From: Anaeromyxobacter terrae
GTDB lineage: Bacteria; Myxococcota; Myxococcia; Myxococcales; Anaeromyxobacteraceae
Direction of reading: 5' to 3'
Length of the DNA: 64,000 bases
Assembly: GCF_022690685.1 (NCBI RefSeq)
Contig: NZ_JALCYY010000007.1
Span: 62,001-126,000, forward strand
This document shows positions 12,563 to 31,881 of the stretch, in pieces. Both the position numbers and the translations under genes were made by a program. A model generated the notes under the pieces. That model ran no database searches. It was given only the letters and a program-made list of their open reading frames with translations, and was not told where the DNA came from. Each line of letters opens with the position of its first letter. Within the stretch, counting starts at the first letter, position 1.

Positions 12563-12595
12563 CCCGGCTTCTTCGCCGCCTGCCGGAGCCCCGCC

Positions 12596-13387: not shown

Positions 13388-13399
13388 CCCGAGCGAACG

Positions 13400-14200: not shown

Positions 14201-14237
14201 CTGCGCGCGGCGGCGCGCGCGAGAGGAGACGAGCCAC

Positions 14238-15698: not shown

Positions 15699-15726
15699 GA
15701 CGAGCAGCCCGCGCGGGGAGCGGTCG

Positions 15727-15768
15727 GCGGGGGCGGGGCGGCGCGGCGCCTCGCCCCCGCTCCGTTTC
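15727..15768 (+). terminator. Probable terminator after the uptake operon
   Basis: GCGGGGGCG (15727-15735) pairs with CGCCCCCGC (15752-15760) around a 16-base loop, followed by TCCGTTTCG. The U-run is short, so this may be a weak or Rho-assisted terminator. It sits 29 bases past the porin stop. Confidence 0.5.
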
Positions 15769-15801
15769 GCGACGTCGGGCGCGCCCGCTGGAGCGGCGCG
15801 G

Positions 15802-15864
15802 CAGATTCGGCTTCAGCGCGCGCGGGAGGCCGGGTGTCGTGCTGCGAGCGCGCCAATCTTCGAC
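15802..15864 (+). promoter_or_regulatory. Conserved regulatory module, copy B (arginase promoter)
   Basis: CAGATTCGGCT (15802-15812) and CAATCTTCGAC (15854-15864), 52 bases apart start to start and identical in both boxes to copy C. The middle ATTGGCT box of A and C is only partly kept (TCGTGCT). An ATTGG occurs later at 15893. The module ends 90 bases before the arginase start. Confidence 0.65.
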
Positions 15865-15954
15865 CGTACGTGTCGTCGCTCCCCGGCTATCCATTGGTCA
15901 CGTCCGGCCGGCCGGGTGCCAATCGACGATTGGTCGGCCGATGGAGAGGAATCG

Positions 15955-16935
15955 ATGAGATCGGTTGCAGGCGGGCCAAGTGCCCATGAGCCCGTCCACG
16001 CCGCTCGCCGCGGGTCGCTCGTGGAGTTCTCCCGGGTCGCCCTCATCGGGGCTCCGACCGACGTGGGCGCCGGCGCGCGCGGCGGCTCGATGGGCCCCGA
16101 GGCCCTCCGCGTCGCGGGGCTGCAGGACGCGCTGGAGTCGCTCGGGCTCACCGTCGTCGATCGCGGGGACGTGGCCGGCCCGAGGAACCCGGTGAAGCCG
16201 CCGAGGGAGGGCTACCGTCACCTCGACGAGGTGGCGGCGTGGTGCCATGCGGTCCGTGAGGCGGTCGGCGCGGCGCTCGACATGGGCGAGCTACCGCTCG
16301 TCCTCGGCGGCGATCACTCGCTCGCCATCGGCTCCATCGCCGCCGTGGCCCGGTGGTGCCGGCGCCGCGGGAAGGGGCTGTACGTGCTGTGGCTCGACGC
16401 GCACGCCGACTACAACGTCCCGGCCACCTCACCGTCGGGGAACATCCACGGGATGCCCGCCGCGGTCATCTCGGGGCACGGGCACCCGAAGCTCCTGGCC
16501 CTCGGCGACGCGTGTCCCATCGTTGCGCCCGCCTCGATCGTGCAGATCGGCGTGCGCTCGGTGGACGCCCACGAGAAGGCGCTCGTCGTCCGGAACGGCT
16601 CGGTGACGTTCGACATGCGCCAGGTCGACGAGCTCGGGATGCGGCGGATCATGGAGCGCGCGCTCGAGCGCGTGGTCCGCGAGGACGCCCACCTGCACGT
16701 CAGCTTCGACGTCGACTTCCTCGACCCGGCCATCGCTCCTGGCGTCGCCACGGTGGTGCCGGGCGGCCCGAATTACCGCGAGGCGCAGCTCTGCATGGAG
16801 ATGCTGCACGACTCGGGGCGGGTGGGCTCCGTCGACGTGGTCGAGCTGAACCCCGCGGCGGACGAGAAGAACCGCTCCGCACGGCTCGCGGTCGAGCTCG
16901 TGCAGAGCCTCTTCGGCAAGCGGATCCTGGCGTGA
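15955..16935 (+). CDS. rocF: Arginase
   Basis: A 326-residue ureohydrolase that converts arginine to ornithine and urea. The two-manganese ligands are visible: H121 in GGDHSLAIG, D148, H150 and D152 in DAHADYN, D252 and D254 in SFDVDFLDP. The ending VVELNPAADEKNR...LVQSLFGK is the arginase rather than agmatinase form, which usually reads DVVEV.P. The ATG at 15955 follows GGAGAGGA; the frame could extend 13 codons upstream but without a ribosome site. The next gene encodes ornithine aminotransferase, so the product is used directly. Confidence 0.94.
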   Translation: MRSVAGGPSAHEPVHAARRGSLVEFSRVALIGAPTDVGAGARGGSMGPEALRVAGLQDALESLGLTVVDRGDVAGPRNPVKPPREGYRHLDEVAAWCHAVREAVGAALDMGELPLVLGGDHSLAIGSIAAVARWCRRRGKGLYVLWLDAHADYNVPATSPSGNIHGMPAAVISGHGHPKLLALGDACPIVAPASIVQIGVRSVDAHEKALVVRNGSVTFDMRQVDELGMRRIMERALERVVREDAHLHVSFDVDFLDPAIAPGVATVVPGGPNYREAQLCMEMLHDSGRVGSVDVVELNPAADEKNRSARLAVELVQSLFGKRILA

Positions 16936-16970
16936 CGCCCCTTCGCGAGACGCCACGCCGCGGCGCGCGA

Positions 16971-17033
16971 CAGATTCGGCTCGGATTGCCGCCGACGCGA
17001 GTGTGATTGGCTGCGCTGGAGGCAATCTTCGAC
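16971..17033 (+). promoter_or_regulatory. Conserved regulatory module, copy C (ornithine aminotransferase promoter)
   Basis: CAGATTCGGCT (16971-16981), ATTGGCT (17006-17012) and CAATCTTCGAC (17023-17033). The outer boxes are identical to copy B with the same 52-base spacing. The module lies between arginase and ornithine aminotransferase, ending 60 bases before the latter, so this gene probably has its own promoter. Confidence 0.65.
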
Positions 17034-17093
17034 AGCCGATGCCGGCGCGTTTTCGATAGTCATTGCCGAGACCGTCTCAAGAGGAGGACGCGG

Positions 17094-18329
17094 ATGAAGC
17101 CCATGGAGCTCGAGAAGCGGTACTGCCCCCAGAACTACCGTCCGTTGCCCGTGACGCTCGTGCGGGGCGAGGGCGCGTGGGTGTGGGACGACGGCGGCCG
17201 GAAGTACCTGGACATGATGAGCGCCTACTCCGCGGTGAGCCACGGCCACTCGCATCCCCGGCTGGTGAAGGTCCTCCAGGAGCAGGCGGCGAAGCTCGCC
17301 ATCGTCTCGCGCGCCTTCCACTCGGACACGCTCGGCCCCTTCCTCGCGACCCTGTGCGCCCGTACCGGGTTCGAGCAGGCGTTGCCGATGAACACCGGAG
17401 CCGAGGCGGTGGAGACCGCGATCAAGGCCGCGCGGCGCTGGGGACACCAGGTGAAGGGCATCCCGGAGGGCGAGGCCGAGATCGTCGTCGCGAGGGGGAA
17501 CTTCCACGGCCGCACGACGACGATCGTCGGGTTCTCCTCCGAGCCGGAGTACCGCCGCGGCTTCGGCCCCTTCGCTCCGGGGTTCCGCGCAGTGCCGTTC
17601 GGCGACGCGCGCGCGATGGCGGCGGCGGTGAACGAGCGCACCTGCGCCGTGCTGGTCGAGCCGATCCAGGGTGAGTCGGGCATCGTCGTGCCGCCGCAGG
17701 GATGGCTGCGCGAGGTCCGCCAGCTGTGCGACGAACGCAACGCGCTGCTCGTCCTCGATGAGATCCAGTCGGGGCTCGGGCGTACCGGGCGGTGGTTCGC
17801 CTTCGAGCACGAGCGCATCCGGCCGGACGGGCTCATCCTCGGGAAGGCGCTCGGGGGCGGGCTCCTGCCCGTGTCCGCTTTCTGCGCCGACCGCGAGGTG
17901 ATGGACGTCTTCGGCCCGGGGAGCCACGGCTCGACGTTCGGCGGGAATGCGCTCGCCGCCGCCGTCGGGCTCGAGGCGCTCAAGGTGCTCGACGAGGAGA
18001 AGCTGGTGGAGCGGAGCGCGTCCGGGGGGGCGTACATGCTCGAGCGGCTGCGCGCGATGCGGTCCCCGGCGCTGAAGGAGGTGCGCGGGCGAGGCCTCTG
18101 GGTCGGGGTCGAGCTCGATCCCGCGCGCGCCGACGCGCGCGACGTCTGCGAGCGCCTCGCCATGCTCGGCGTCCTCACGAAGGAGACGCACGACACCGTG
18201 ATCCGGCTCGCGCCCCCGCTGGTGGTGAACACGACGGAGCTCGACTGGGCGCTCGATCGGCTCCAGTCGGTCCTGGACGAGCTCGCGCCGCGGAGGACGA
18301 CGCGGTCCACCGTGGCAGGAAACGGCTAG
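17094..18329 (+). CDS. rocD: Ornithine aminotransferase
   Basis: A 411-residue class III PLP aminotransferase. The PLP lysine is K251 in LGKALGGG; MNTGAEAVETAIK and DEIQSGLGRTG are characteristic of the ornithine branch. It moves the delta-amino group of ornithine to 2-oxoglutarate, giving glutamate semialdehyde. Position between arginase and P5C dehydrogenase makes the assignment firm. The start at 17094 has GAGGAGGA seven bases ahead. The C-terminal tail after LDELAPRR is unlike the family and may be disordered. Confidence 0.94.
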   Translation: MKPMELEKRYCPQNYRPLPVTLVRGEGAWVWDDGGRKYLDMMSAYSAVSHGHSHPRLVKVLQEQAAKLAIVSRAFHSDTLGPFLATLCARTGFEQALPMNTGAEAVETAIKAARRWGHQVKGIPEGEAEIVVARGNFHGRTTTIVGFSSEPEYRRGFGPFAPGFRAVPFGDARAMAAAVNERTCAVLVEPIQGESGIVVPPQGWLREVRQLCDERNALLVLDEIQSGLGRTGRWFAFEHERIRPDGLILGKALGGGLLPVSAFCADREVMDVFGPGSHGSTFGGNALAAAVGLEALKVLDEEKLVERSASGGAYMLERLRAMRSPALKEVRGRGLWVGVELDPARADARDVCERLAMLGVLTKETHDTVIRLAPPLVVNTTELDWALDRLQSVLDELAPRRTTRSTVAGNG

Positions 18330-18462
18330 CGGGAGCGCAGCGGCGCGGCTGCCTTTTCCGCGCACCCAGGATCCAGATCCGAACGGCTCACGCGGGCGCC
18401 GCGGAGGGCGCCGCCGTCCGCCCTTGGCGCAGGCGCATGCAATGGCAATGGAGGAGAAACCC

Positions 18463-20100
<1,638 letters not shown>

Positions 20101-20102
20101 CC

Positions 20103-23057
20103 ATGGCATCGCGCGCCCTCGAGTTGCTGGACCAGGCCGGCGAGAACCTCCGCTGGCTCGAGGAGAAGCTCCCGTCGCTGTTCAGCGGCACGCTCCGGGC
20201 GGACGGCGACGCCATCTCGGCGCTCGCGATCGGGCTCGGCCGGCTCCGGAGCGACCGGCAGCTCGTGCTCGCCGACCGAGCCCACGAGCTCATCCTGGCG
20301 AAGCTCGACGTCCCCGGCTCGATCTTCGAGACGCTGCGCCAGATCCAGGACCGGGACATCTCGCGGGCGGAGATCTCCCACTCTCGCGTTGCGGTGCCCG
20401 GCAACGAGCGCGCGCTCGAGCTCCAGCGCTACGTGTTCGATCGGAAACCGGACGCGCTCGTCCGGCAGGCGGGCGCGCCGGGCATGCCGGAGCGCGTTCG
20501 CCGGGACGTCCTCGCCGCGCTCTCGGACCTGGACCCGGCGCTCGGGCCGGAGGCGCAGGAAGAGCTCCTCCGCGTCCTGTGGCTCAACGATCCGCGCTAC
20601 GTCCACGCCGCGCCGCCGCCGGAGGTGGCGCGGATGCTGCGGCTGCTGCACCAGGGGCGGTCGAACGCGGGCTTCTTCCTCGGCGTGGAGCCGCCGGAAG
20701 ACGGGGACGCCGAGCCGAACGAGGTGAACATCCTGTTCGCGGTGGAGAGCCCGCCGCCGCGCGACCACCTCACCCAGCTGGTGGAGGTCCTCCACGGGCT
20801 CGACCTCGGCGTGCGCCGTTTGCTCGCGATGACGGTCAGCACCGGTGGCCACCCGTTCTTCCTGGGCAGCTTCCACGTGGCGCACCGGCGCGGCGCTCCC
20901 CTGCGGGAGGGCACCGAGCTCTTCTGGAGGCTGCGGCGGCTCCTCTACAACACGCAGATCCTCGCGACCGAGTCGGCCGCCTACCAGGACTTCGTGCTCA
21001 CGGGGGTGATGAACGGCGAGGAGGCCTCGCTCGTCAACGCCTTCATCGGCTTCTGCCACACGAACTGCGCTCACAACCAGCCCCACCGCTACACGCTCGA
21101 AGACGTGGTGCGCGCCTTCCGCTCCCACCCGGACATGGCGCTCCGGCTCGTGCGGCTCTTCGAGGCGCGCTTCGACCCGAACGTCGCGGACCGTGAGGCG
21201 CGTTACGCCGCGGAGCTGGAGGGGGTCGAGCGGGAGGTCCACGCCTACAACACCGGCCACCGGCAGCTCGACGACTTCCGCCGGACGCTCTTCCGGACCG
21301 CGCTCGTGTTCGTGCGCCGGACGCTCAAGACCAACTTCTTCGTGGCGGAGAAGCACGCGCTCGCGTTCCGGCTCGACCCGGCCTATCTCGACGACCTCGG
21401 CCCGACGTTCACCGGCGACCTTCCGCAGCAGCCACCCTTCCGCGTCACGTTCTTCTTCGGCCGCAGCGGGCTCGGCTACCACATCGGGTTTGCCGACATC
21501 GCGCGTGGAGGGTGGCGCACCGTCTTCGCCAAGACCCGCGACGACTACGTCACCGTGGCAAACACGATCTTCCGCGAGAACTACGTCCTCGCCCACACCC
21601 AGCACCTGAAGAACAAGGACATCTACGAGGGCGGGTCGAAGATGGTGTGCGTCCTCCACGCGAGCGACGTGGAGACCCGAGAGCAGCTCGTCCAGCGGCT
21701 GCACAAGCTGCAGTGGGAGTTCGCGAACGCGTTCCTCGACGTCTTCGTCACGGAGGGCGGCAGGCCGAAGGATGCGCGGGTGGTGGACTACTACGGGGAG
21801 GAGGAGCCCATCGAGCTCGGCCCCGACGAGAACATGCACGACGAGATGATCGAGGCGATCGCCGAGCTCTCGGTCCGCCGCGGCTACGTGCTCGGAAGCG
21901 GCATCATGTCGAGCAAGAGGGTGGGCATCAACCACAAGCAGTACGGCGTGACCTCGCTCGGCATCGTGACCTTCGCCGAGATCGCCATGCGCGAGCAGGG
22001 CGTCGACATCCGCCGCGACCCGTTCACCGTGAAGCTCTCCGGTGGCCCGAACGGCGACGTCGCCGGGAACGGGCTGCGCTTGCTCCTCGAGCGGTGCCCG
22101 CGCGCGAGCATCAGGCTCATCGTGGACGGGACGGCGGCGCTCTTCGATCCGGCGGGGCTCGATCGCGAGGCCCTGCGGCAGATCGTGCTGCGCGCCGACG
22201 CGGACGCGTTCGACCCCGCGCGCCTCTCGCCGGGAGGGTTCGTCCTCTACCGCAGCGCGCGCCGGACCGAGGGCCTGCGCGATCTGTTCCGCCGCGTCGA
22301 GCAGACCGCGTCCGGTCCGCAGGAGGACTGGGTGACGGTCGACGAGTTCCACAAGGAGTTCGACGGGCTGCTGTTCGAGGTGCAGGCGGACCTCTTCATC
22401 CCGGCGGGCGGGCGGCCCGAGACCATCGACGGGGACAACTGGCGCCGGTTCCTCGGACCCGACGGGAAGCCGTCCGCGCGCGTCATCGTCGAGGGCGCGA
22501 ACTCGTTCCTCACGCCCGAGGCCCGCCTGCGGCTCCAGGAGACCGGCGCCGTGGTGCTCCGCGACGCGTCCGCCAACAAGTGCGGCGTCATCTCGTCGTC
22601 ATACGAGATCATCGGCAACCTGCTCTTCTCCGCCGCCGAGTTCCTGGAGCACAAGGAGAGGTACGTCCGGGACGTGCTCGAGATCCTCGAGCGGCGCGCC
22701 GCGGACGAGGCGCGGCTCATCATGCGCCGGCATCGGGAGGGGGCGGGCAACCGCAGCTTCACCGAGATCTCCGACGCGGTGAGCCTCGAGATCAACGCGA
22801 ACAAGGCCCGCCTCTTCGCCTTCTTCCAGTCGCGGCCCGAGCTCGCCGGACGCCCGCTCTACCGCAAGGCGCTCCTCGCGCACCTGCCGCGCCTCGTCCG
22901 CGAGACCCCTCCCCTTCGCGATCGCATCGATCGCCTGCCGCCCAAGTACCGCTCGGCCATCCTCGCGGCGGAGATCGGCGCGGCCATGGTCTACCGGCGT
23001 TCGCTCGAGCCCGACTTCGCGGCGGCGCTCGAGGACTACGTGTCCGGGATGGTCTGA
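20103..23057 (+). CDS. NAD-specific glutamate dehydrogenase, large (about 110 kDa) type
   Basis: A 984-residue protein, between the usual 450-residue hexameric enzymes and the 1600-residue bacterial type, and similar in size to the GDH-115 class. The catalytic domain spans about 440-800: GLGYHIGFADIARGGWR, HLKNKDIYEGGSKMV and the dinucleotide-binding SGGPNGDVAGNGLRLLLE. The enzyme oxidatively deaminates glutamate to 2-oxoglutarate and ammonium, completing arginine degradation. The N-terminal 440 residues probably carry regulatory domains. It begins two bases after pruA on the same strand and is the last gene of the arginine block; the Lrp gene converges on it. Confidence 0.93.
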   Translation: MASRALELLDQAGENLRWLEEKLPSLFSGTLRADGDAISALAIGLGRLRSDRQLVLADRAHELILAKLDVPGSIFETLRQIQDRDISRAEISHSRVAVPGNERALELQRYVFDRKPDALVRQAGAPGMPERVRRDVLAALSDLDPALGPEAQEELLRVLWLNDPRYVHAAPPPEVARMLRLLHQGRSNAGFFLGVEPPEDGDAEPNEVNILFAVESPPPRDHLTQLVEVLHGLDLGVRRLLAMTVSTGGHPFFLGSFHVAHRRGAPLREGTELFWRLRRLLYNTQILATESAAYQDFVLTGVMNGEEASLVNAFIGFCHTNCAHNQPHRYTLEDVVRAFRSHPDMALRLVRLFEARFDPNVADREARYAAELEGVEREVHAYNTGHRQLDDFRRTLFRTALVFVRRTLKTNFFVAEKHALAFRLDPAYLDDLGPTFTGDLPQQPPFRVTFFFGRSGLGYHIGFADIARGGWRTVFAKTRDDYVTVANTIFRENYVLAHTQHLKNKDIYEGGSKMVCVLHASDVETREQLVQRLHKLQWEFANAFLDVFVTEGGRPKDARVVDYYGEEEPIELGPDENMHDEMIEAIAELSVRRGYVLGSGIMSSKRVGINHKQYGVTSLGIVTFAEIAMREQGVDIRRDPFTVKLSGGPNGDVAGNGLRLLLERCPRASIRLIVDGTAALFDPAGLDREALRQIVLRADADAFDPARLSPGGFVLYRSARRTEGLRDLFRRVEQTASGPQEDWVTVDEFHKEFDGLLFEVQADLFIPAGGRPETIDGDNWRRFLGPDGKPSARVIVEGANSFLTPEARLRLQETGAVVLRDASANKCGVISSSYEIIGNLLFSAAEFLEHKERYVRDVLEILERRAADEARLIMRRHREGAGNRSFTEISDAVSLEINANKARLFAFFQSRPELAGRPLYRKALLAHLPRLVRETPPLRDRIDRLPPKYRSAILAAEIGAAMVYRRSLEPDFAAALEDYVSGMV

Positions 23058-23124: not shown

Positions 23125-23625
23125 TCACCCCTCGTCGGCGGCCGTGACCGGGTACCCGCCGAACTCGCGGACGGGGCTCAGCACGATGCTCGTCGAGATG
23201 CGGGCAACCGGGAGCCTCGGATCGTCGATCCAGGAGGCCGTCAGCTCGCGATAGCGATCGAGGCTGGGGCAGACGATGCGCGCGACGTAGTCGATCTGCC
23301 CGCTCACCAGGTAGCAGTCGATGACCTCCGGGCAGGCGCGGAGCACCTTGTCGAACGCCGCCTGGGCGGCCTGGGTCTGGTCGCGGAGCGTGATCTCCGC
23401 GAAGAAGGTCGTCTGCCCGGAGACCGCCTTGAAGTCGACGATCGCCATGTAGCGCCGGATGTAGCTCTCGCGCTCGAGCCGGTTCACCCGCTCGAGGCAA
23501 GGCCGGGGCGAGAGGCCCACCAGCTCGGAGAGCCGCTGGTTCGTGATGCGGCCGTCGCTCTGCAGGATGGTGAGGATCTTCGCGTCGATCTGATCCAGCT
23601 TCCGCGACTTCGTGCCGTCAGCCAT
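23125..23625 (-). CDS. Lrp/AsnC family transcriptional regulator
   Basis: A 166-residue regulator. The helix-turn-helix is at about 10-55 (LDQIDAKILTILQSDGRITNQRLSELVGLS), and an RAM effector domain follows at about 70-150 (FFAEITLRDQ, CYLVSGQIDYVARIV). Family members bind amino acids and wrap DNA as octamers. Its ATG overlaps the stop of the class III aminotransferase gene by eight bases, placing it last in the catIJ-containing operon. It is a good candidate to bind the repeated 63-bp module upstream of the transporter, rocF and rocD genes, but this is inference; a second Lrp gene lies at 37755. Confidence 0.95.
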   Translation of the reverse strand: MADGTKSRKLDQIDAKILTILQSDGRITNQRLSELVGLSPRPCLERVNRLERESYIRRYMAIVDFKAVSGQTTFFAEITLRDQTQAAQAAFDKVLRACPEVIDCYLVSGQIDYVARIVCPSLDRYRELTASWIDDPRLPVARISTSIVLSPVREFGGYPVTAADEG

Positions 23626-24973
23626 GGCGCACCCTCTCGACCGCCTGATTCAGCGCCACCGTGAACCGCTCCGTCAAGTCGTCGATTTCGGAATCGCTGA
23701 TCACGAACGGCGGAGCGAGGCAGCAGACGTCGCCGTCGACGCCATTCGCCTGCCCGACGTTCGTCCAGGTCATGAGCCCGGCGCGCAGCGCGGCGTCCGA
23801 GAGCGTCTCCGCGAACCTGAGCCTGCGCGGGAAGGGGGCGCGGGTGGCCTTGTCCGCGACGAGCTCGACGCCGGCCAGGAGCCCGCGCCCGCGAACGTCG
23901 CCCACGTACGGCAGCTCGCGGAGCGCCTCGAGGCGCGCGTGCAAGAGCGCGCCCATCCGCCGGCAGCGCTCGACGAGGCCGTGCCGCTCGACGTGGCGGA
24001 CCGCGGCGAGCCCGGCCGCCGCCAGCACCGGATGGTGGCTGAAGGTCTGCGCATGGAGCATCGCACCCGAGCCCTTCGCGATCGGGTCGATCACCCGACG
24101 CGAGGTGGCGACCGCGGAAAGGGGCGCGTAGCCGCCGGTGATCCCCTTGCCGAGGACCATGATGTCGGGAGCGACGCCGAACTGCTCGATGGCCCACCAG
24201 GTACCCGTCCGCCCGGCCCCCACCAGGACCTCGTCCGCGATGAAGAGGATCTCCCGCCGATCGCAGATCTCCCGGATGCGGCGGAAGTAGTCGCCGCGAG
24301 GGACCGAGTGTCCGGTCGAGCTCCCGCCGACGGGCTCTGCGATGAAGGCCGCCACCTGGTCCGCGCCCAGCTCGTCGAGCGCCACCTCGAGCACCGAGCC
24401 ATCGCAGACCGCGCAGGGCTCGCTCGGGACGCCGCCGCACCGGCAGCGATACGCGTACGGAGCCGGGATGCGGTGCACGTCGACGAGCCACTCGCGGTAG
24501 CAGGTCTTGTAGTGCTCGCGCGCCGAGGCAGAGAGCGCGAGCAGCGTGTTGCCGTGGTACGCGGGCGTGAGCGCGATGATCTTGTGCTTCGACGGCCGGC
24601 CGACCTCGACCCAGTGCTGCCGGGCCAGCTTGAGGGCCGCCTCCACCGCCTCGGAGCCGCTGCAGAGGAAGTAGAGCTTGTCGAGTGGCGGCGGCAAGAG
24701 CCGCGAGAGCTCCGCGGCGAGCGCCTCCACCGGCTCGGTGGTGAAGGCAGTGCCGTTCACGTAGGCGATCTGCGCGGCCTGCTCCGCCATCGCCTCGCCG
24801 ATCTCCCGGACGCCGTGCCCGAGGTTCGCGACGAACGCGCCGCCCGATGCGTCGAGGTAGCGCCGCCCCTCCGAGTCGACGAGCCACGCCCCCTCGCCAC
24901 GCACCACGAGCGGATAGCTCCGGCCGAGCTTCCGGTAGAAGACGTTCGACTCGGGATAGCGGAACGCGCTCAC
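23618..24973 (-). CDS. Class III aminotransferase, possible beta-amino acid transaminase
   Basis: A 451-residue PLP enzyme. The PLP lysine is K276 in VLGKGITGG, and CSGSEAVEAALKLARQ and IADEVLVGAGRTG are intact. The family includes omega- and beta-amino acid transaminases as well as DAPA and taurine aminotransferases, so substrate is not fixed by sequence. The insert YRCRCGGVPSEPCAVCDG carries four cysteines in a CxC...CxxC pattern and could bind metal. The start is the GTG at 24973, whose GTGA overlaps the catJ stop. In this operon, conversion of 3-aminoadipate to 3-oxoadipate, the CatI/CatJ substrate, is the proposed role. Confidence 0.88.
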   Translation of the reverse strand: MSAFRYPESNVFYRKLGRSYPLVVRGEGAWLVDSEGRRYLDASGGAFVANLGHGVREIGEAMAEQAAQIAYVNGTAFTTEPVEALAAELSRLLPPPLDKLYFLCSGSEAVEAALKLARQHWVEVGRPSKHKIIALTPAYHGNTLLALSASAREHYKTCYREWLVDVHRIPAPYAYRCRCGGVPSEPCAVCDGSVLEVALDELGADQVAAFIAEPVGGSSTGHSVPRGDYFRRIREICDRREILFIADEVLVGAGRTGTWWAIEQFGVAPDIMVLGKGITGGYAPLSAVATSRRVIDPIAKGSGAMLHAQTFSHHPVLAAAGLAAVRHVERHGLVERCRRMGALLHARLEALRELPYVGDVRGRGLLAGVELVADKATRAPFPRRLRFAETLSDAALRAGLMTWTNVGQANGVDGDVCCLAPPFVISDSEIDDLTERFTVALNQAVERVRHG

Positions 24974-25737
24974 GAGAGGTACAGCCCCCGCGGATCGAGG
25001 ACTTCCCGGAGCAGCCGGAGCTCCTCGCCCGTCGGTCCCGCCACGGTGTCGAGGGCGGCGCCCACGCGCAGCGGCCAGCCGACGCCGCGCTCCACGTCCT
25101 CGACGGCGACGCCGGGGTAGAGCGCGGTGAGGACCATCTCGCCGGTGGACGGATCGGACTCCAGGATGGCCTTGTCGGTGACCACCTTCACTGGGCCGGC
25201 GCCAGGCATCCCGAGCTCCCGGCGCGATCGCCCGTGGCTCCGCTGGCCGGGGCTCGTGACGAAGTCCACCTCCGCCGGGAACGAGCGCGCGCTGAGGCGG
25301 CTGATCACGAGCACGCGCCGGGCGTGGACGGCGATCTCGGGCGCGCCGCCGGCGCCTGGCAGGCGGACCTTCGGCTCGCGGTAGCTCCCGACCACGGTCG
25401 TGTTGATGTTTCCCCACCGGTCGATCTGCGCCCCGCCGAGGAAGCCCACCCCGACGCGGCCGTTCTGCAGGAACAGCTGGAACACGTCCGCCATCGGGCA
25501 GACCATGAGGCTGCCCGTGACGAGCGACGGATCGCCGATCGAGACCGGCAGCCGGTCCGGCGCCGCGCCTATGGCGCCGGACTCGTAGATGAGGACCAGG
25601 TTGGGAGCGTGCAGCGCGCGCGCGAGGTTGCACGCAAGGTTCGGCAGGCCGATGCCCACGAACGTCACCTCGCCGTCACGGAGCTCCCGGGCGGCGACCG
25701 CGGCCATCATCTCGGAAGGCGTGTAGTCAGTAGCCAT
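24970..25737 (-). CDS. catJ: 3-oxoadipate CoA-transferase subunit B (CatJ/GctB family)
   Basis: A 255-residue CoA-transferase subunit. The sequence TFVGIGLPNLACNLARALHAPN, LIYESGAIGA, GNINTTVVG and KVRLPGAGGAPEIA follow the CatJ/glutaconate CoA-transferase beta pattern. With subunit A it would move CoA from succinyl-CoA to 3-oxoadipate. It overlaps subunit A by 11 bases and the aminotransferase by four, so all three are translationally coupled. GGGGTGAG precedes the ATG. Glutaconate or another dicarboxylate is the main alternative substrate. Confidence 0.88.
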   Translation of the reverse strand: MATDYTPSEMMAAVAARELRDGEVTFVGIGLPNLACNLARALHAPNLVLIYESGAIGAAPDRLPVSIGDPSLVTGSLMVCPMADVFQLFLQNGRVGVGFLGGAQIDRWGNINTTVVGSYREPKVRLPGAGGAPEIAVHARRVLVISRLSARSFPAEVDFVTSPGQRSHGRSRRELGMPGAGPVKVVTDKAILESDPSTGEMVLTALYPGVAVEDVERGVGWPLRVGAALDTVAGPTGEELRLLREVLDPRGLYLS

Positions 25738-26632
25738 AGCTCACCCCGGCGCAGATCCGCGGGCGCGCCCCGAGCCGCTCCGCGAGGGCTGGCTGGCGCC
25801 GCATGTACTCGGCCCGGTCCGTCACCCCGTACACGTGCTCGTCGAGGTAGGCGCGGAGCCGGCCCGGGTCGCGCGAGATCTCCTCCCACGCGACATAGAA
25901 CTCGTTGTCGCGATCGTAGTGGCCCTGCGCGTACGACGGGTGACAGCCCCACGGCTCGACCACCACCGCGTCGACGATCAGGCCGGGGATGAGCGTGCGG
26001 TTGGGATCGGCGCGGATGACGCTCTCGTCGACGAGCTCCTCCACCACCACGATCACCCGCTTCGAGGCGAACGCCGCCTCCTTCTGCACGCCCATGAGGC
26101 CCCACACCTGGGCGTTGCCGTGGTGGTCGGCGCGCTGGGCGTGGACGATGGTGACGTCGGGGTTGAGCGCCGGGACCGCCGCCAGCGTCTCGCCGGTGAA
26201 CGGGCAGTTGACCGTCCGGATGAGCGGGTTCGCCGCGGGGAGGTCCGTGCCCATGTAGTTGCGCATCACGCCGAAGGGCAGCCGGGCAGCGCCCGCCGAG
26301 AGGCGCGTCACCATCCCGAAGTGGCTGTACTCCTCGAGCTCGAGCTCGGCCGGCCTCGCCTCGACCGCGCGGCGGAACGCGTGCAGCGAGCCGGCGCCGG
26401 GGTTGCCCGCCCAGGAGAAGATCAGCTTCCGGGCGCAGCCCGCGGCGATCATCTGGTCGTAGATCACGTCCGGCGTCAGCCGCGCGAGCGTCAACTCACG
26501 GCGCCGCTGTCGAATGACCTCGTGCGCGGCGGCGAAGCAGATGAGGTGGGTGAAGCCCTCGATGACGAGGGTGTCCCCGTCCCGGACGTGGGCGGCGATC
26601 GCGTCCTTCATCGTGACGACCTTCGAGTGCAT
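25727..26632 (-). CDS. catI: 3-oxoadipate CoA-transferase subunit A (CatI/GctA family)
   Basis: A 301-residue subunit with the whole-length CatI pattern: VIEGFTHLICFAAAHEVIRQ, GCARKLIFSWAGNPGAGSLH, NCPFTGETLAAVP, DVTIVHAQRAD, WGLMGVQKEAA and CHPSYAQGHYDRDN. CatI/CatJ enzymes of Pseudomonas are 3-oxoadipate CoA-transferases, distinct in sequence from PcaI/PcaJ and related to glutaconate CoA-transferase. No catechol or protocatechuate genes are in the window, so 3-oxoadipate must have another source if the assignment holds. The ATG at 26632 follows GAGGGTGA. The GntR gene ends 51 bases upstream. Confidence 0.88.
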   Translation of the reverse strand: MHSKVVTMKDAIAAHVRDGDTLVIEGFTHLICFAAAHEVIRQRRRELTLARLTPDVIYDQMIAAGCARKLIFSWAGNPGAGSLHAFRRAVEARPAELELEEYSHFGMVTRLSAGAARLPFGVMRNYMGTDLPAANPLIRTVNCPFTGETLAAVPALNPDVTIVHAQRADHHGNAQVWGLMGVQKEAAFASKRVIVVVEELVDESVIRADPNRTLIPGLIVDAVVVEPWGCHPSYAQGHYDRDNEFYVAWEEISRDPGRLRAYLDEHVYGVTDRAEYMRRQPALAERLGARPRICAGVSYGY

Positions 26633-26683
26633 GCGTCACCCTCGCGTGGCGCGGCCGGAGGCGCGTCCAGCCGCGGCGGTGGG

Positions 26684-27364
26684 CTACCGATCCAGCGCCG
26701 AGACCAGGAGCTCGGCGGCGCCGGTGAGGTGGCGCTCGAGCAGCTTCGCCGCCCGGTCGCCGTCGCGCGCGCGCAGCGCCGCGAAGAGCTTCCGGTGCTC
26801 GGCCTCGAACTCGCGACGGTGCTTCAGCATCAGGCCGTGGACGCGCCAGTAGCGATCCACGCGCCGCAGGAGGCCATCGATGAGCTCCCGCAGCCGCGGG
26901 CGGCTGTCGAGGTCGTAGACGAGGCGGTGGAAGTCGAGGTCGTACGAGCCCCAGGTGGCGTCGTCCCGCGCACGCTCCGTCAGCTTCAGGAGCTCCTCGG
27001 CTCGGGCGAGGGCCGCGTCCGTGAGCCGTGGGGCCGCGCGGCGCACCGCGGCGGTCTCTAGGATCGCGCGGATCTCGTAGATCTCCCGGATCTCGTCGGG
27101 GGTGTGCGCCGTCACCGTGGCGCCGTGGTTCGGCTGGTAGGTGACGAGGCCCTCCGACTGGAGCTGCCGGAGCGCCTCGCGCACCGGGATGTGGCTGACC
27201 TCGAGCTGGGCCGCGATCTCCTGCTGCGGGAGCGGGTCGTTGGCCTTCAGGTGCCCGCTGGTGATCGCCTCCCGGAGCACCTCCGCGACGAGCTCGTGGG
27301 TGGAGAGCCTACGCGAGGTGGGCAGGCGGTCGAGGATCCGATCGAGTTGCACGCCACCTGTCAT
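26684..27364 (-). CDS. GntR family regulator, FCD (FadR-like) type
   Basis: A 226-residue regulator. The winged helix-turn-helix is at about 18-85 (LRQLQSEGLVTYQPNHGATV), with the FCD effector domain at about 95-215 (YEIRAILETAAVRRAAPRL, DFHRLVYDLDSRPRL and a metal-ligand histidine in EHRKLFAALRARD). FCD regulators sense organic or amino acids and bind AT-rich palindromes. It lies inside the lysine-type catabolic operon, between the aldehyde dehydrogenase and catI, and a fitting palindrome sits in the divergent promoter at 29061. The start ATG at 27364 lacks a strong ribosome site. Confidence 0.93.
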   Translation of the reverse strand: MTGGVQLDRILDRLPTSRRLSTHELVAEVLREAITSGHLKANDPLPQQEIAAQLEVSHIPVREALRQLQSEGLVTYQPNHGATVTAHTPDEIREIYEIRAILETAAVRRAAPRLTDAALARAEELLKLTERARDDATWGSYDLDFHRLVYDLDSRPRLRELIDGLLRRVDRYWRVHGLMLKHRREFEAEHRKLFAALRARDGDRAAKLLERHLTGAAELLVSALDR

Positions 27365-27438
27365 AGAGCAGGCGGCGCGCGGTGTCCAAGGCCCGGGCGC
27401 CAGGTCGTGGGCGGCGGCGTCGAGCGCGCCTGCCGCGA

Positions 27439-29028
27439 TCATGCGCCCACCACCGTGCGGCTCTGTTCGCGCACGAACTGCTGCACGTACCAGGGTCCGC
27501 AGCCGCCCTTGCCGCTCGCGCCGCTGCCCTTCCAGCCGCAGAAGGGCTGAGCTCCGGGCCAGGCGCCGGTGGTGGCACCGGAGCGCTTGTTGACGTAGCA
27601 GACCCCCGCCTCCACCTCTTCGAAGAAGCGATCGACCTCCTCTCGCGCGCCGGAGAAGAGTCCGGCGGTCAGCCCGTACTCCACCTTGTTGGCCTCGGCG
27701 AGGGCCTCGTCGAAGCCACTCACCACGCCGACCGAGAGGAACGGTGCGAACAGCTCCTCCTCGAAGAGCCCGCTCCCGAGCGGCAGCTCCGCGATGGTCG
27801 GCGCGACGAAGTGGCCTCGATCGAACACGCCGCCCCGGAGCCGCTCGCCGCCGAGGAGGAGCCTGCCCTCGCGCGCGCCCTGCTCCACCGCGCGCTCCCA
27901 CCGCTTCACCGCGCGCTCGTTGATGACCGGGCCGAACCAGACGTCGCGCTGCGTGACGTCGCCCATCCGGATGGCGCGCGTCCGCTCGACGAGCCGCTCG
28001 GCGAACGACGCGGCGACGGAGCCGTAGACGTAGACGCGGCTCGTCGCGCTGCACTTCTGGTTCTGGAGGCCGAACGCCGAGCGCATCACGCCCTCGGCGG
28101 CGGCGTCGAGGTCGGCGCTGTCCGTGACGATGACGGCGTTCTTGCCGCCGAGCTCCAGCAGGCACGGCTTCACCCAGCGCTCCGAGAGGCCGTGGAAGAT
28201 GCGCATCCCGACGTCCTTCGAGCCGGTGAAGACGACGCCATCGATGAGCGGGTGGTGCCAGAGCGCGTCGCCCATCTCGCGACCGCGGCCGCTCAGGTAC
28301 TGGAACACGCCCGGCGGCACCCCGGCGTCGCGGTAGACGTCGTGCAGCGCGAGGCCGGTCCAGGGAGCGTCCTCGGCTGGCTTGTAGACGACGGCATTGC
28401 CGGTCATCAGCGCCGCCGAGGACATCCCGGTCGAGAGGGCGAGCGGGAAGTTGAATGGGGCGATGCAGGCGAAGACGCCGTAGGGGCGAAGCGTCTCGAC
28501 GTTGTGCTCGATCGGCGTCAACCGGGCCATGTCGCGGACGAAGCCGTCGTGCTCCTCCACCTGCTGACAGTAATAGTCGACGAGGTCGGCGGACTCCTCC
28601 GCGTCGCCCATCGCCTCGAGGCGGTTCTTCCCGACCTCGATGGCCATGATCGCCGCGAGCAGGAACTTCCGCTCGCGGATGAGCTCCGCCGCACGCCGCA
28701 GGATCCGCACGCGCTCCCGCCACGGCAGCGCGGCCCAGCGCCGCTGCTGCGTCTTCGCGGACCGCACCGCCCGGTCCACCTCGTCCGGGCCCGCCGCTGC
28801 GAACGTGCCGAGCACGACGCTCGTGTCGATGGGCGAGACGTCGACGATCGGCGGGCGGTCCGGACGGACGGGCTCGCCGTCGACGTGGAGCGGATGGGAC
28901 TGGCCCATCCGTGCGCGCACCTCGGCGAGCGCAGCGTCGAAGGCTCGGTGGAAGGCGTCGAGATCGACGTTCGCGGAGGTGTACGTGATCTTCTGCGGCT
29001 GATGCTGAGACGGAGCGCTGGTGGTCAT
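27439..29028 (-). CDS. Aldehyde dehydrogenase, P5CDH-like branch
   Basis: A 529-residue NAD(P)-dependent aldehyde dehydrogenase. The nucleophile is C326 in NQKCSATSR, with LELGGKNAVIV and the Asn motif APFNFPLALSTGM. The overall pattern resembles RocA/PutA-type P5C dehydrogenases. That fits a substrate with an amino group gamma to the aldehyde, such as 3-amino-6-oxohexanoate made from beta-lysine, which would cyclise like P5C. It diverges from kamA across a 111-base promoter region holding the GntR-type palindrome, and leads the minus-strand operon ALDH-GntR-catI-catJ-aminotransferase-Lrp. A role in other semialdehyde oxidation is possible. Confidence 0.9.
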   Translation of the reverse strand: MTTSAPSQHQPQKITYTSANVDLDAFHRAFDAALAEVRARMGQSHPLHVDGEPVRPDRPPIVDVSPIDTSVVLGTFAAAGPDEVDRAVRSAKTQQRRWAALPWRERVRILRRAAELIRERKFLLAAIMAIEVGKNRLEAMGDAEESADLVDYYCQQVEEHDGFVRDMARLTPIEHNVETLRPYGVFACIAPFNFPLALSTGMSSAALMTGNAVVYKPAEDAPWTGLALHDVYRDAGVPPGVFQYLSGRGREMGDALWHHPLIDGVVFTGSKDVGMRIFHGLSERWVKPCLLELGGKNAVIVTDSADLDAAAEGVMRSAFGLQNQKCSATSRVYVYGSVAASFAERLVERTRAIRMGDVTQRDVWFGPVINERAVKRWERAVEQGAREGRLLLGGERLRGGVFDRGHFVAPTIAELPLGSGLFEEELFAPFLSVGVVSGFDEALAEANKVEYGLTAGLFSGAREEVDRFFEEVEAGVCYVNKRSGATTGAWPGAQPFCGWKGSGASGKGGCGPWYVQQFVREQSRTVVGA

Positions 29029-29060
29029 CGCGGCCTCGGGGGTCAGCGGGCTTGCGAAAG

Positions 29061-29075
29061 AATATATAGTATATT
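29061..29075. promoter_or_regulatory. AT-rich palindrome, probable GntR operator
   Basis: AATATATAGTATATT has perfect 6-bp arms (AATATA and TATATT) around TAG. It is strikingly AT-rich for this genome and resembles FCD-type GntR operators. It lies 33 bases before the aldehyde dehydrogenase start and 65 before kamA, where it could control both directions. Confidence 0.6.
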
Positions 29076-29139
29076 ATCTCTGCCGAGCGCAAGCACGCCC
29101 GGCTCCTCGCGAGCCGTTTCACCCACCGTCGAGGTCGCC

Positions 29140-30546
29140 ATGCGGAGCACGATGAGCCCGGCCCTGGGGCCGGAGAAGGCCGAGCAGCCCCTCCTCTATG
29201 CCTATGCTCCGGCGCGCGAACGATCCGAGCCGGACTGGACCCGCATCCCCGGCTTCCGCGGCGTGAGCCGGGCCGAGTGGGAAGACGCCACCTGGCAGCG
29301 CCGGCACACGGTGAAGAGCGTGCGCGAGCTGAAGGGCGCGCTCGGAGCGCTCCTCCCCGACGATCTCGCCGAGGGCATCGCGCTCGATCAGGCGAGGCGG
29401 GCGACGATGTCGATCCTGATCCCGCCGCACATGCTGAACACGATGGACGTCGCGGAGCTGTGGAGCGATCCCGTGCGGCGCTACATGCTGCCCGCCCTGG
29501 CGGATCGGCGGGCGGACTGGCCCGACCACCCGAGGGCGTCGCGCGACAGCCTGCACGAGCACGACATGTGGGTCGCGGAGGGGCTCACCCACCGTTACCC
29601 TACGAAGGTCCTCGCGGAGCTCGTCGCGACGTGCCCGCAATATTGCGGTCACTGCACGCGGATGGACCTCGTGGGGAACGACGTGCCGGCGGTGACGAAG
29701 CTCCGGTTCGAGCTGCCGCAGCAGCGTCGATTCGGGGCGATGCTCGACTATCTCCGGAGGACACCGACGGTGCGGGACGTCGTGGTCTCCGGCGGAGACA
29801 TCGCGAACCTGCACATCACCCAGCTCGAGCCCTTCGTCAGCGCGCTGCTCGACATCCCGAGCATCCGCGACATTCGGCTCGCCTCGAAGGCCCTCGCCGG
29901 CCTGCCCCAGCACTACCTGCAGGACGACGTCCTCGCGGGCCTGGAGCGGCTCTCGAGGAAGGCGTTCGAGCGCGGCGTGGATCTCGCCATCCATACCCAC
30001 GTCAACACCGCCCAGCAGGTGACCCCGCTCCTCGCGAAGGCGACCCGGAAGCTGCTCGAGATGGGCTTCCGCGACGTGCGGAACCAGGGCGTGCTGCTAC
30101 GCGGCGTGAACGCTACGTCGAAGGATCTGCTGGACCTCTGCTTCGCGCTGCTCGATCACGCCAACGTCCTTCCGTACTACTTCTACATGTGCGACATGCT
30201 GCCGAACAGCGAGCACTGGCGCGTGGCGCTCTTCGAGGCGCAGCAGCTGCAGCACGACATCATGGGCTATCTGCCCGGCTTCGCGACGCCGCGTATCGTC
30301 TGCGACGTCCCGTTCGTCGGCAAACGCTGGGTCCACCAGGTCGCAGAGTACGACCGAGAGAAGGGCATCAGCCGCTGGACCAAGAATTACCTCACGCCCC
30401 TCGAGCGGGGCGACCCCGAGGCGATGCGCCGTCGGTACGACTACTACGACCCGATCTACACCCTCCCCGAGTCAGGGCAGGCCTGGTGGCGGCGGCAGGC
30501 GAGGGCTGGCGAGCACGCCGAGTCGCACGGCGCGCTGGACGCTTAG
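29140..30546 (+). CDS. kamA: KamA family radical SAM aminomutase (lysine 2,3-aminomutase-like)
   Basis: A 468-residue radical SAM/PLP protein. The cluster motif is C165-PQY-C169-GH-C172, preceded by the KamA-typical LTHRYPTKVLAELV. The probable PLP lysine is K395 in PFVGKRWV, at the place of the GGGGK lysine of classical KamA. The text after the cluster, TRMDLVGNDVPAVT, differs from the TRRR.AG of Clostridium and Bacillus enzymes, so this is a divergent branch and substrate (lysine, glutamate, ornithine) is not certain. Lysine to beta-lysine fits the neighbours best. GAGG precedes the ATG, and the next gene's ribosome site overlaps its stop. Confidence 0.87.
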   Translation: MRSTMSPALGPEKAEQPLLYAYAPARERSEPDWTRIPGFRGVSRAEWEDATWQRRHTVKSVRELKGALGALLPDDLAEGIALDQARRATMSILIPPHMLNTMDVAELWSDPVRRYMLPALADRRADWPDHPRASRDSLHEHDMWVAEGLTHRYPTKVLAELVATCPQYCGHCTRMDLVGNDVPAVTKLRFELPQQRRFGAMLDYLRRTPTVRDVVVSGGDIANLHITQLEPFVSALLDIPSIRDIRLASKALAGLPQHYLQDDVLAGLERLSRKAFERGVDLAIHTHVNTAQQVTPLLAKATRKLLEMGFRDVRNQGVLLRGVNATSKDLLDLCFALLDHANVLPYYFYMCDMLPNSEHWRVALFEAQQLQHDIMGYLPGFATPRIVCDVPFVGKRWVHQVAEYDREKGISRWTKNYLTPLERGDPEAMRRRYDYYDPIYTLPESGQAWWRRQARAGEHAESHGALDA

Positions 30547-30555
30547 GAGGCGCCG

Positions 30556-31881
30556 ATGGAGACCCGAAGCTACCCGCGCGTGGCGACGCCCCTCCCCGGC
30601 CCGAAGGGCAGGGCCATCATCGAGCGTGACGCTCAGTTCACGTCCACGTCGTACATCAAGGAGTATCCGCTCGTGATGAGCGGCGGCTCCGGCGCGATGG
30701 TCGAGGACGCCGACGGCAACCGGTTCATCGACTTCATGGCGGGGATCGCGGTCTCCGCGACCGGCTACAACCACCCGGAGGTCGTCGGCGCCGTGTGCCG
30801 GCAGGCGGAGCGGTTCTTCCACATCTGCGGGACGGACTTCTACTACGACGTCTTCGCCCGGCTCGCCGAGCGGCTGGCGCGGCTCGCGCCCGGCCCGAGC
30901 CGCAAGCGCGCGTTCCTGACCAACTCCGGCACCGAGGCCATCGAGGGCGCCATCAAGCTGGCGCGCTTCCACACGCGGCGGCCGGCGCTCATCGCCTTCC
31001 ACGGCGCGTTCCACGGCCGGAGCTACGGCGCGATGAGCCTCACCTCGAGCAAGGCGAAGCAGCACCAGCACTTCGGTCCCTTCCTGCCAGACGTGCACCA
31101 TGTGCCGTACTGCAACCCTTACCGCAGCTCTGCGAGCGATCCTGCGGAGTGCGTGCGCGCGACGATCCGCGCGATCGAAGAGGACCTCTTCACGCGGCAC
31201 GTGGCCCCGGAGGACGTCGCGGCCATCTTCGTCGAGCCTCTCCAGGGCGAGGGCGGCTACGTGGTCCCGCCGGACGGCTTCCTGCGCGCGCTGAGGCAGC
31301 TCTGCGATCGGCACGGGATACTGCTCGTCGCGGACGAGGTGCAGAGCGGCGTGGGCCGGACCGGCAAGATGTGGGCCTGCGAGTGGGAGGACGTCGAGCC
31401 GGACATCCTCGTCACGGCCAAGGGCCTGGGCTCTGGCATGCCGATCGGAGCCCTCGTCGCGAAGGACGCGGTCATGAGCTGGAAGGCGGGCTCACATGGG
31501 TCGACGTTCGGTGGGAACGCGGTCTCCTGTGCGGCGGCGCTTGCCACGCTCGACGTCGTGGAGCGGACGCTGCCCCGCGTGCGCGCCATGGGAGAGCGGA
31601 TGCTGTCCCGCGCGCGCCAGATCATGGACCGGTGCCCCATCGTCGGTGACGTGCGCGGGCGAGGACTGATGATCGGGGTCGAGCTCGTGAAGGACCGCCG
31701 AACGAAGGAGCCGCACGAGGACGCCATCGACCGGATCACGCAGCGCGCGTTCCGCAACGGGCTCCTGCTGCTCGCGTGCGGCAGGAGCACCTTCCGCCTC
31801 GCGCCCCCGCTCGTGCTCGACGAGTACGACGTGGACGTGGGCATGGACATCTTCGAGAAGTGCCTGCGGGAGGAGTCCTGA
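30556..31881 (+). CDS. Class III aminotransferase, GabT/ornithine-lysine omega type
   Basis: A 441-residue PLP aminotransferase. The PLP lysine is K289 in TAKGLGSGMP; NSGTEAIEGAIKLAR and ADEVQSGVGRTGKMWA follow the 4-aminobutyrate/omega-amino acid branch. It starts nine bases after the kamA stop with a TAGGAGG ribosome site formed partly by that stop, so it is coupled to kamA. Proposed role: remove the 6-amino group of beta-lysine to give 3-amino-6-oxohexanoate, by analogy with ornithine aminotransferase on a one-carbon shorter substrate. 4-Aminobutyrate transamination is the main alternative. Confidence 0.9.
   Translation: METRSYPRVATPLPGPKGRAIIERDAQFTSTSYIKEYPLVMSGGSGAMVEDADGNRFIDFMAGIAVSATGYNHPEVVGAVCRQAERFFHICGTDFYYDVFARLAERLARLAPGPSRKRAFLTNSGTEAIEGAIKLARFHTRRPALIAFHGAFHGRSYGAMSLTSSKAKQHQHFGPFLPDVHHVPYCNPYRSSASDPAECVRATIRAIEEDLFTRHVAPEDVAAIFVEPLQGEGGYVVPPDGFLRALRQLCDRHGILLVADEVQSGVGRTGKMWACEWEDVEPDILVTAKGLGSGMPIGALVAKDAVMSWKAGSHGSTFGGNAVSCAAALATLDVVERTLPRVRAMGERMLSRARQIMDRCPIVGDVRGRGLMIGVELVKDRRTKEPHEDAIDRITQRAFRNGLLLLACGRSTFRLAPPLVLDEYDVDVGMDIFEKCLREES

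Follow-up and report, generated by a model that had tools for sequence, protein, structure and literature searches.

Why does a gene of the KamA aminomutase family stand among two aminotransferases and a coenzyme A (CoA)-transferase of the 3-oxoadipate type? The question is raised by a locus of Anaeromyxobacter terrae (contig NZ_JALCYY010000007.1), analysed here in a stretch of 64 kb with 72% G+C, called the window below. The parent genome has 5.65 Mb and belongs to the Myxococcota, in an order that includes the Myxococcaceae. From about 29.1 kb, the genes are transcribed in both directions, as two units. The rightward unit contains kamA and a first aminotransferase (AT1). The leftward unit contains an aldehyde dehydrogenase (ALDH), a GntR regulator, the CoA-transferase subunits A and B (CoA-T A, CoA-T B), a second aminotransferase (AT2) and an Lrp regulator. 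We believe that the cluster probably encodes an oxidative lysine route, in which lysine would be converted through beta-lysine, 3-aminoadipate and 3-oxoadipate to succinyl-CoA and acetyl-CoA; all substrates and the order of the steps are read from sequence.

The predicted route has six steps. The kamA gene (29140-30546, plus strand) encodes a radical S-adenosylmethionine (SAM) aminomutase, a predicted lysine 2,3-aminomutase that would turn L-lysine into beta-lysine (3,6-diaminohexanoate). AT1 (30556-31881, plus strand), a class III omega-aminotransferase, is predicted to take the distal C6 amino group off beta-lysine and to leave 3-amino-6-oxohexanoate. ALDH (27439-29028, minus strand; Pfam Aldedh), a P5CDH-like protein and predicted 3-amino-6-oxohexanoate dehydrogenase, would oxidize this product to 3-aminoadipate. 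AT2 (23618-24973, minus strand), a class III aminotransferase in the NCBIfam scan, would then act as a beta-transaminase on 3-aminoadipate (or 3-aminoadipyl-CoA), and the loss of the C3 amino group would give 3-oxoadipate. In the fifth step, the predicted 3-oxoadipate CoA-transferase, made of CoA-T A (25727-26632, minus strand; Pfam CoA_trans) and CoA-T B (24970-25737, minus strand; Pfam), would form 3-oxoadipyl-CoA. In the sixth, a PcaF-like thiolase (10134-11321, minus strand), predicted to be the 3-oxoadipyl-CoA thiolase, would release succinyl-CoA and acetyl-CoA. Two aminotransferases, an aldehyde dehydrogenase and a CoA-transferase and thiolase of the 3-oxoadipate type, with no beta-oxidation gene between them, point to a six-carbon acid with amino groups at C3 and C6, that is, beta-lysine.

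The initial annotation had proposed this same route, and all genes it named are present where it placed them. Clustering, co-occurrence, the kinship of the CoA-transferase and the lack of an intradiol dioxygenase or PaaA/PaaC match support its proposal, in which substrates and step order stay predicted. Its gene labels were borne out at the level of families; most scores fall below the curated NCBIfam cut-offs, and the assignments are weaker than it had worded them.

Conservation and regulation of the cluster

The initial annotation had suggested a gene-neighbourhood search, and the outcome was favourable, as AT2-ALDH-AT1-CoA-T A/B recurs elsewhere in Myxococcota and Elusimicrobiota. CoA-T A was found in 27 of 195 Myxococcota genomes (E ≤ 1e-60), and all 27 neighbourhoods were inspected. 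In 19 of them, AT2-ALDH-AT1-CoA-T A-CoA-T B-thiolase formed one strand-uniform run of six genes. The window and genome G047 have the five cluster genes without the thiolase in the run. G110 shows the order AT2-ALDH-CoA-T A-CoA-T B-AT1, with AT2 ending at a contig edge. Four cluster genes run up to the contig end in G071, AT1 lies 8 kb off in G013, and G026 offers a contig of 4 kb. In G096 and G147, CoA-T A is near an intradiol dioxygenase, and these two were taken as aromatic operons. The six-gene operon of the Myxococcaceae, which include laboratory strains, makes the proposed route directly testable.

The Elusimicrobiota sample comprised 198 genomes, drawn evenly from a larger number. CoA-T A was present in 10 of them (E ≤ 1e-60), the KamA clade in 12 (E ≤ 1e-150) and both in 8 (Fisher P = 4e-10, kinship ignored); kamA and the CoA-transferase co-occur in this phylum. 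In a ninth genome with CoA-T A (G328), KamA is cut off at the contig end. Of the 10 genomes with CoA-T A, 9 have AT2 and AT1 next to it and 8 have ALDH.

The KamA-clade loci were the best 80 of at least 585, and many end at contig edges. At least one of AT1, AT2, CoA-T A, CoA-T B and GntR, at 57% identity or more, was found within 10 kb at ten loci: one of Gemmatimonadetes (L005, with GntR and AT1) and nine of Elusimicrobia (L033, L034, L035, L042, L052, L053, L062, L073 and L076). At the other 70 loci, none of the five was found within the same limits. In L062 and L076, AT2-ALDH-AT1-CoA-T A-CoA-T B-KamA is a single run, and KamA adjoins the cluster in the window and in these two loci. The data indicate that the cluster is real: AT2, ALDH, AT1 and CoA-T A/B stay linked in Myxococcota and Elusimicrobiota.

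The co-occurrence of KamA and CoA-T A in Myxococcota (24 of 27 genomes with CoA-T A vs 76 of 168 others) was set aside as a test, since 87 Myxococcaceae genomes have this KamA anyway. For the same reason, the presence of a KamA-clade gene in all 19 genomes with the six-gene operon is weak evidence.

The promoter region between ALDH and kamA also shows conservation. The sequence ATATATNNTATAT (29062-29074) has a single match in the window, between these two genes, and none in 100 shuffles; the 20-base segment that contains it has the highest AT content in the 64 kb. Of the 243 loci compared, three have this motif: L085, which is that of the window, L125, where AT1 and ALDH flank it, and L005, where GntR and kamA flank it. 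In L125 and L005, the promoters that contain it are divergent. The gene of the GntR/FCD regulator (26684-27364, minus strand; Pfam GntR and FCD) adjoins the site or lies one gene away in all three clusters. The GntR relatives in L125 and L005 are 70% and 72% identical to the window protein, and the L005 copy is cut by the contig end. ATATATNNTATAT is probably the operator of GntR, within a putative operator element at 29055-29077. GntR would act at this AT-rich palindrome and would probably control the pathway; if so, kamA, AT1, ALDH and GntR are tied into one regulon. The leftward unit ends with the Lrp/AsnC regulator (23125-23625, minus strand), which was assigned by family scans.

Substrates of the aminomutase and the aminotransferases

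Lysine 2,3-aminomutase 2A5H is the closest solved structure to KamA, both by sequence and by predicted fold. The mean predicted local distance difference test (pLDDT) score of the KamA model was 77, and those of the other four models were 56-65. The Pfam scan of KamA at E 0.001 gave no family. Residues were compared over 120 aligned rows of the clade (at least 60% identity, with near-copies among them). The cluster cysteines C165, C169 and C172 (CX3CX2C) and R174 are invariant, and R174 aligns with R134 of 2A5H, which presumably binds the carboxylate. D352 and D389 are also invariant in all 120 rows; they align with D293 and D330 of 2A5H, which we take to hold the side-chain amine of lysine. 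In glutamate 2,3-aminomutase, these two positions are Lys and Asn. A325, the residue after RGVN, varies across the clade (A, D, S, T, G, N).

The neighbours of the clade were also informative. Kdd-family genes stand near KamA at 8 of the 80 loci and KamD-family genes at 7 (Actinobacteria; members 64-71% identical); these counts come from protein clustering and maps, with one representative of each family identified by scan, and one KamE was also identified. A KamA relative with 60% identity adjoins vioC and vioD, in what looks like a tuberactinomycin-type cluster. Such clusters require beta-lysine. Because of the conserved pair of side-chain Asp residues and the Kdd/KamD and vioC/vioD neighbours, lysine is most likely the substrate of this KamA.

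These residues and neighbours also bear on a different order of events. AT1 and ALDH could act on lysine itself, and the KamA-like protein would then be a 2-aminoadipate 2,3-aminomutase that produces 3-aminoadipate, with the rest unchanged. AT1 does belong to an omega-aminotransferase family, and KamA scores far under the lysine 2,3-aminomutase cut-off. However, the two Asp residues would repel a carboxylate, members of the clade adjoin KamD and Kdd, and the glutamate 2,3-aminomutase model gives only 120 bits against 166 bits for TIGR03820. We consider this order highly improbable. Known lysine degradation via 2-aminoadipate (lysine 6-aminotransferase, piperideine-6-carboxylate dehydrogenase) likewise joins omega-transamination to aldehyde oxidation; in contrast, the window route is predicted to work on beta-lysine, and ALDH reaches 261 bits with the piperidine-6-carboxylate dehydrogenase model, whose cut-off is 730.

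Other members of the KamA family were seen in different surroundings. In Myxococcaceae loci (L007-L013, L015, L017-L019, L047 and others), the same KamA clade precedes a second KamA-family gene of about 30% identity, in most cases with a large gene upstream of the pair; in L015, this large gene scores as a Ser/Thr kinase. No gene of the lysine cluster was found in the stretch examined at these paired loci. On a Klebsiella plasmid (L178) and a Streptomyces plasmid (L174), a KamA-family gene has a class I tRNA-ligase-family protein in its vicinity, and both sets include an MFS transporter; they look like small-molecule biosynthesis.

AT1 passed the cut-off of PRK05769 (604 bits, cut-off 552), and its closest solved structure is 7vno, deposited as a hypothetical 4-aminobutyrate aminotransferase. 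The lysine motif for pyridoxal phosphate (PLP) is present in 19/19 rows of AT1 and in 16/18 rows of AT2, the other two AT2 rows ending at contig edges. The catalytic Glu and Cys of ALDH were found in 39/39 aligned rows. The residues of ALDH and of the thiolase were scored by alignment; plain patterns gave both ALDH motifs in 4/17 rows and failed to pick up the thiolase Cys of three rows. The best NCBIfam model of ALDH is P5CDH, and ALDH is 30% identical to the P5CDH next door. As the initial annotation had claimed, an ornithine set lies beside the cluster: arginase, ornithine aminotransferase and P5CDH were identified in the window. Because the window has this separate ornithine aminotransferase and P5CDH, ornithine use does not require AT1 or ALDH.

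Relatives of ALDH on haloarchaeal, Rhodococcus and Caballeronia plasmids were inspected, and no matching cluster was seen there. A plasmid of Deinococcus radiodurans (L176, 4153-10972) carries a CoA transferase, KamA, DUF4274, an AT1-like aminotransferase (49% identical) and P5CDH consecutively, which is possibly a parallel arrangement. As an independent copy of the cluster, the D. radiodurans run KamA-DUF4274-aminotransferase-P5CDH (L176, L184) was rejected, since its aldehyde dehydrogenase scores as a true P5CDH.

The place of AT2 in the order of steps can be read in another way. CoA activation could come first, so that 3-aminoadipate would become 3-aminoadipyl-CoA and then 3-oxoadipyl-CoA; the substrate of AT2 would then be the CoA ester, as it is for Kat of lysine-fermenting metagenomes. 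Perret et al. (2011; PMC3149608) describe such a beta-transaminase of lysine fermentation, a HemL-like enzyme that works on CoA esters exclusively. The models that fit AT2 best, on the other hand, are PRK07483 and PRK06917, and AT2 shares 39% identity with the aminotransferase of the Bacillus velezensis kamA operon (Kat itself was not among the comparisons). The CoA-transferase, moreover, has its kin in operons annotated for 3-oxoadipate. We regard CoA activation before the second transamination as unlikely and retain 3-oxoadipate as the predicted substrate of the CoA-transferase.

Terminal enzymes and genome context

CoA-T A is 54-56% identical to the proteins in the PcaI position of five pca operons. 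These include the operons of Sinorhizobium meliloti pSymB (near pobA and pcaQ), Azospirillum lipoferum (with pcaD, pcaC, pcaH and pcaG) and Phyllobacterium, in all three of which the gene in the PcaI position is followed by CoA-T B and then by pcaF. The pcaIJF genes of S. meliloti have reportedly been characterized genetically. The YESG motif of CoA-T B, which presumably carries the nucleophile, is present in 20/20 rows, two of them from pca operons. Identity and trees thus agree with the CatI/J-type label given at first, as the CoA-transferase is kin to pca-operon proteins.

Trees of the subunits were made from 32 rows, in which 11 of the 19 operon-bearing Myxococcota genomes were represented. 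The subunits of G110 are nested in the pca clade (A 100/99, B 98/97). CoA-T A of G110 is 66-71% identical to pca-operon proteins, yet it is positioned between ALDH and AT1. KamD and Kdd gave no match in G110, and PF00775 only a sub-threshold one. It seems that the same cluster captured a pca-type 3-oxoadipate CoA-transferase independently, and no other single observation argues as strongly for the 3-oxoadipate step.

The thiolase of the window is the sole match at E ≤ 1e-100 in its own genome, and its catalytic Cys, His and Cys are present in 40/40 aligned rows. A relative of this PcaF-like thiolase sits inside the operon in 19 myxobacterial genomes. The window thiolase groups with those of the Myxococcaceae operons against PcaF (100/100), on a long branch.

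This kinship with pca-operon proteins could also mean that the two enzymes serve the end of an aromatic pathway (catIJ/pcaF) and stand beside the lysine genes by chance. In 2 of the 27 myxobacterial genomes (G096, G147), CoA-T A does lie near an intradiol dioxygenase. The genome of the window, however, has no match to intradiol dioxygenase (PF00775) or PaaA/PaaC (PF05138), other ring-cleavage families not being searched; the claim that no ring-cleavage gene is present was upheld genome-wide within this scope. The aminotransferases also remain linked to the CoA-transferase in two phyla. We consider an aromatic role of these two enzymes extremely unlikely, and the lysine route is preferred.

The initial annotation had also stated that kamDE, kdd and kce are absent. 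This holds within the window; elsewhere in the genome, contig C66 carries KamD, KamE and a Kce-like gene (370 bits, cut-off 382) side by side, contig C61 carries Kdd, and contig C84 carries a classical KamA passing the TIGR03820 cut-off. The absence of kamDE was therefore rejected as an argument for the route, as KamD and Kdd are found elsewhere in the genome. With these genes at hand, KamA might do no more than feed the canonical fermentative route (KamDE, Kdd, Kce), its neighbours in the cluster doing unrelated work. But within the window's own family, probably Anaeromyxobacteraceae, KamD is present in 20 of 24 genomes, against 1 of 24 for this KamA clade, and the classical KamA lies elsewhere in the genome. 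Seven genomes (G090-G092, G110, G013, G199 and G200) have this KamA with cluster genes and gave no KamD or Kdd match (completeness not known for G199 and G200). We judge that such feeding alone is very unlikely to explain the cluster.

CoA-T A was found in 2 of the 24 family members. Because of these counts (KamD 20/24, KamA clade 1/24, CoA-T A 2/24), the fermentative set looks like old equipment of the family and the cluster of the window like an addition. The cluster is an extra, patchily distributed route. Of the family members at least 90% complete, only G047 has no KamD match. Among the 27 Myxococcota genomes with CoA-T A, 7 have neither KamD nor Kdd, including the one-contig genome G092, which carries KamA and the six-gene operon.

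Several results weigh against the lysine route. KamA reaches 166 bits with TIGR03820, its best-scoring model (cut-off 525), the thiolase 510 with TIGR02430 (cut-off 597), ALDH 411 with PRK03137 (cut-off 648) and AT2 458 with PRK07483 (cut-off 485). K395 of KamA, present in 120/120 clade rows, falls where the alignment with 2A5H ends and misses the PLP lysine of that structure, K337, by one residue. All co-occurrence counts are inflated by kinship among genomes. G047 has the cluster (L125, 5.9-12.8 kb) at 70-83% identity without a KamA of this clade; it holds two other KamA-family genes, as does the genome of the window, and those of G047 could supply beta-lysine. Support for the group that unites 20 of the 21 rows from the cluster in the tree of CoA-T A is 93/94, which is not strong, and the group includes two rows with incomplete context (G013, G026); the support for CoA-T B is 82/82. 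The thiolase gene is about 12 kb away from the cluster, and the placement of its product is unsure (branch 0.85, with a warning that long branches meet). The product of KamA could enter the canonical fermentation set of the same genome, and KamD accompanies the six-gene operon in 16 of 19 genomes. PF00775 gave matches in 25 of 35 genomes searched, for the most part weak ones, away from the operon, in Myxococcaceae that carry it. Four Elusimicrobia genomes (G196, G197, G199 and G200) have PaaA/PaaC-type genes, and their thiolase could be PaaJ.

Known routes and neighbouring genes

The cluster shares parts with several known systems. The kamA (yod) operon of Bacillus also has KamA, a class III aminotransferase and a two-subunit CoA-transferase. 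Unlike the window, the two Bacillus-type operons examined have AblB, a putative beta-lysine acetyltransferase, and a peptidase-family protein, which we take to be a deacetylase, where the window has AT1 and ALDH. Their CoA-transferase A is of another kind and barely similar to CoA-T A (20 bits). Family scans found no beta-lysine N-acetyltransferase or deacetylase among the eight cluster genes, the rest of the genome not being searched. In Pseudomonas B4, the thiolytic end of the acetylated beta-lysine route yields acetyl-CoA. The predicted product of the window route is succinyl-CoA, and in this it differs from the acetylated route with its 4-aminobutyrate. For B. subtilis, PMC6522883 states that KamA acts on lysine in vitro, that its physiological function is undetermined and that YodT is uncharacterized.

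Canonical lysine fermentation (KamA, KamDE, Kdd, Kce, Kal, with a Kat variant) also starts from lysine with KamA, and the clade of this KamA adjoins Kdd and KamD in places. In contrast to that system, family scans found no KamDE, Kdd or Kce among the cluster genes; KamDE, Kdd and the Kce-like gene are on other contigs here, and several cluster-bearing genomes gave no match to KamD or Kdd. The end of the beta-ketoadipate pathway (PcaIJ/CatIJ, PcaF) corresponds to CoA-T A/B and the thiolase (47-56% identical to the window proteins), and the CoA-T A/B-thiolase order of the Myxococcaceae matches that of S. meliloti pSymB. The window set differs in that two aminotransferases and an aldehyde dehydrogenase take the place of the ring-cleavage genes.

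In the open-access literature, no description of a route from beta-lysine to 3-oxoadipate was found, also under 3-aminoadipate and its synonyms; subscription journals were mostly outside this search. The route would be a variant of aminomutase-initiated lysine catabolism, and its novelty is provisional. With some reserve, we lean towards an undescribed lysine pathway of patchy distribution, which would occur in Myxococcota and Elusimicrobiota at the least, Gemmatimonadota having a partial relative. The pathway would join radical-SAM formation of beta-lysine to the end enzymes of the beta-ketoadipate pathway through 3-aminoadipate as a new central metabolite. In the organism of the window, it would stand beside the fermentative set and draw on the same pool of beta-lysine, as an oxidative outlet.

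If this is true, bacteria have an added route for the complete consumption of lysine. It would account for aminotransferases beside pca-type CoA-transferases where genomes lack intradiol ring-cleavage genes, and it would correct the automatic annotation of such genes as aromatic degradation or ornithine use. Lysine-to-adipate chemistry might also profit from enzymes that make or use 3-aminoadipate.

The ornithine genes are part of an arginine-use operon at 11801-23057, adjoining Lrp. It comprises a polar amino acid ABC transporter, a porin, arginase, ornithine aminotransferase, P5CDH and a probable NAD-glutamate dehydrogenase. The last is a long frame after P5CDH (20103-23057), identified by eye and without a scan. 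Farther off, a single protein of 1245 residues with CheB, CheR, PAS, histidine kinase and receiver domains is encoded at 1340-5077, and a B12-binding radical SAM protein with DUF4070 at 5221-6783.

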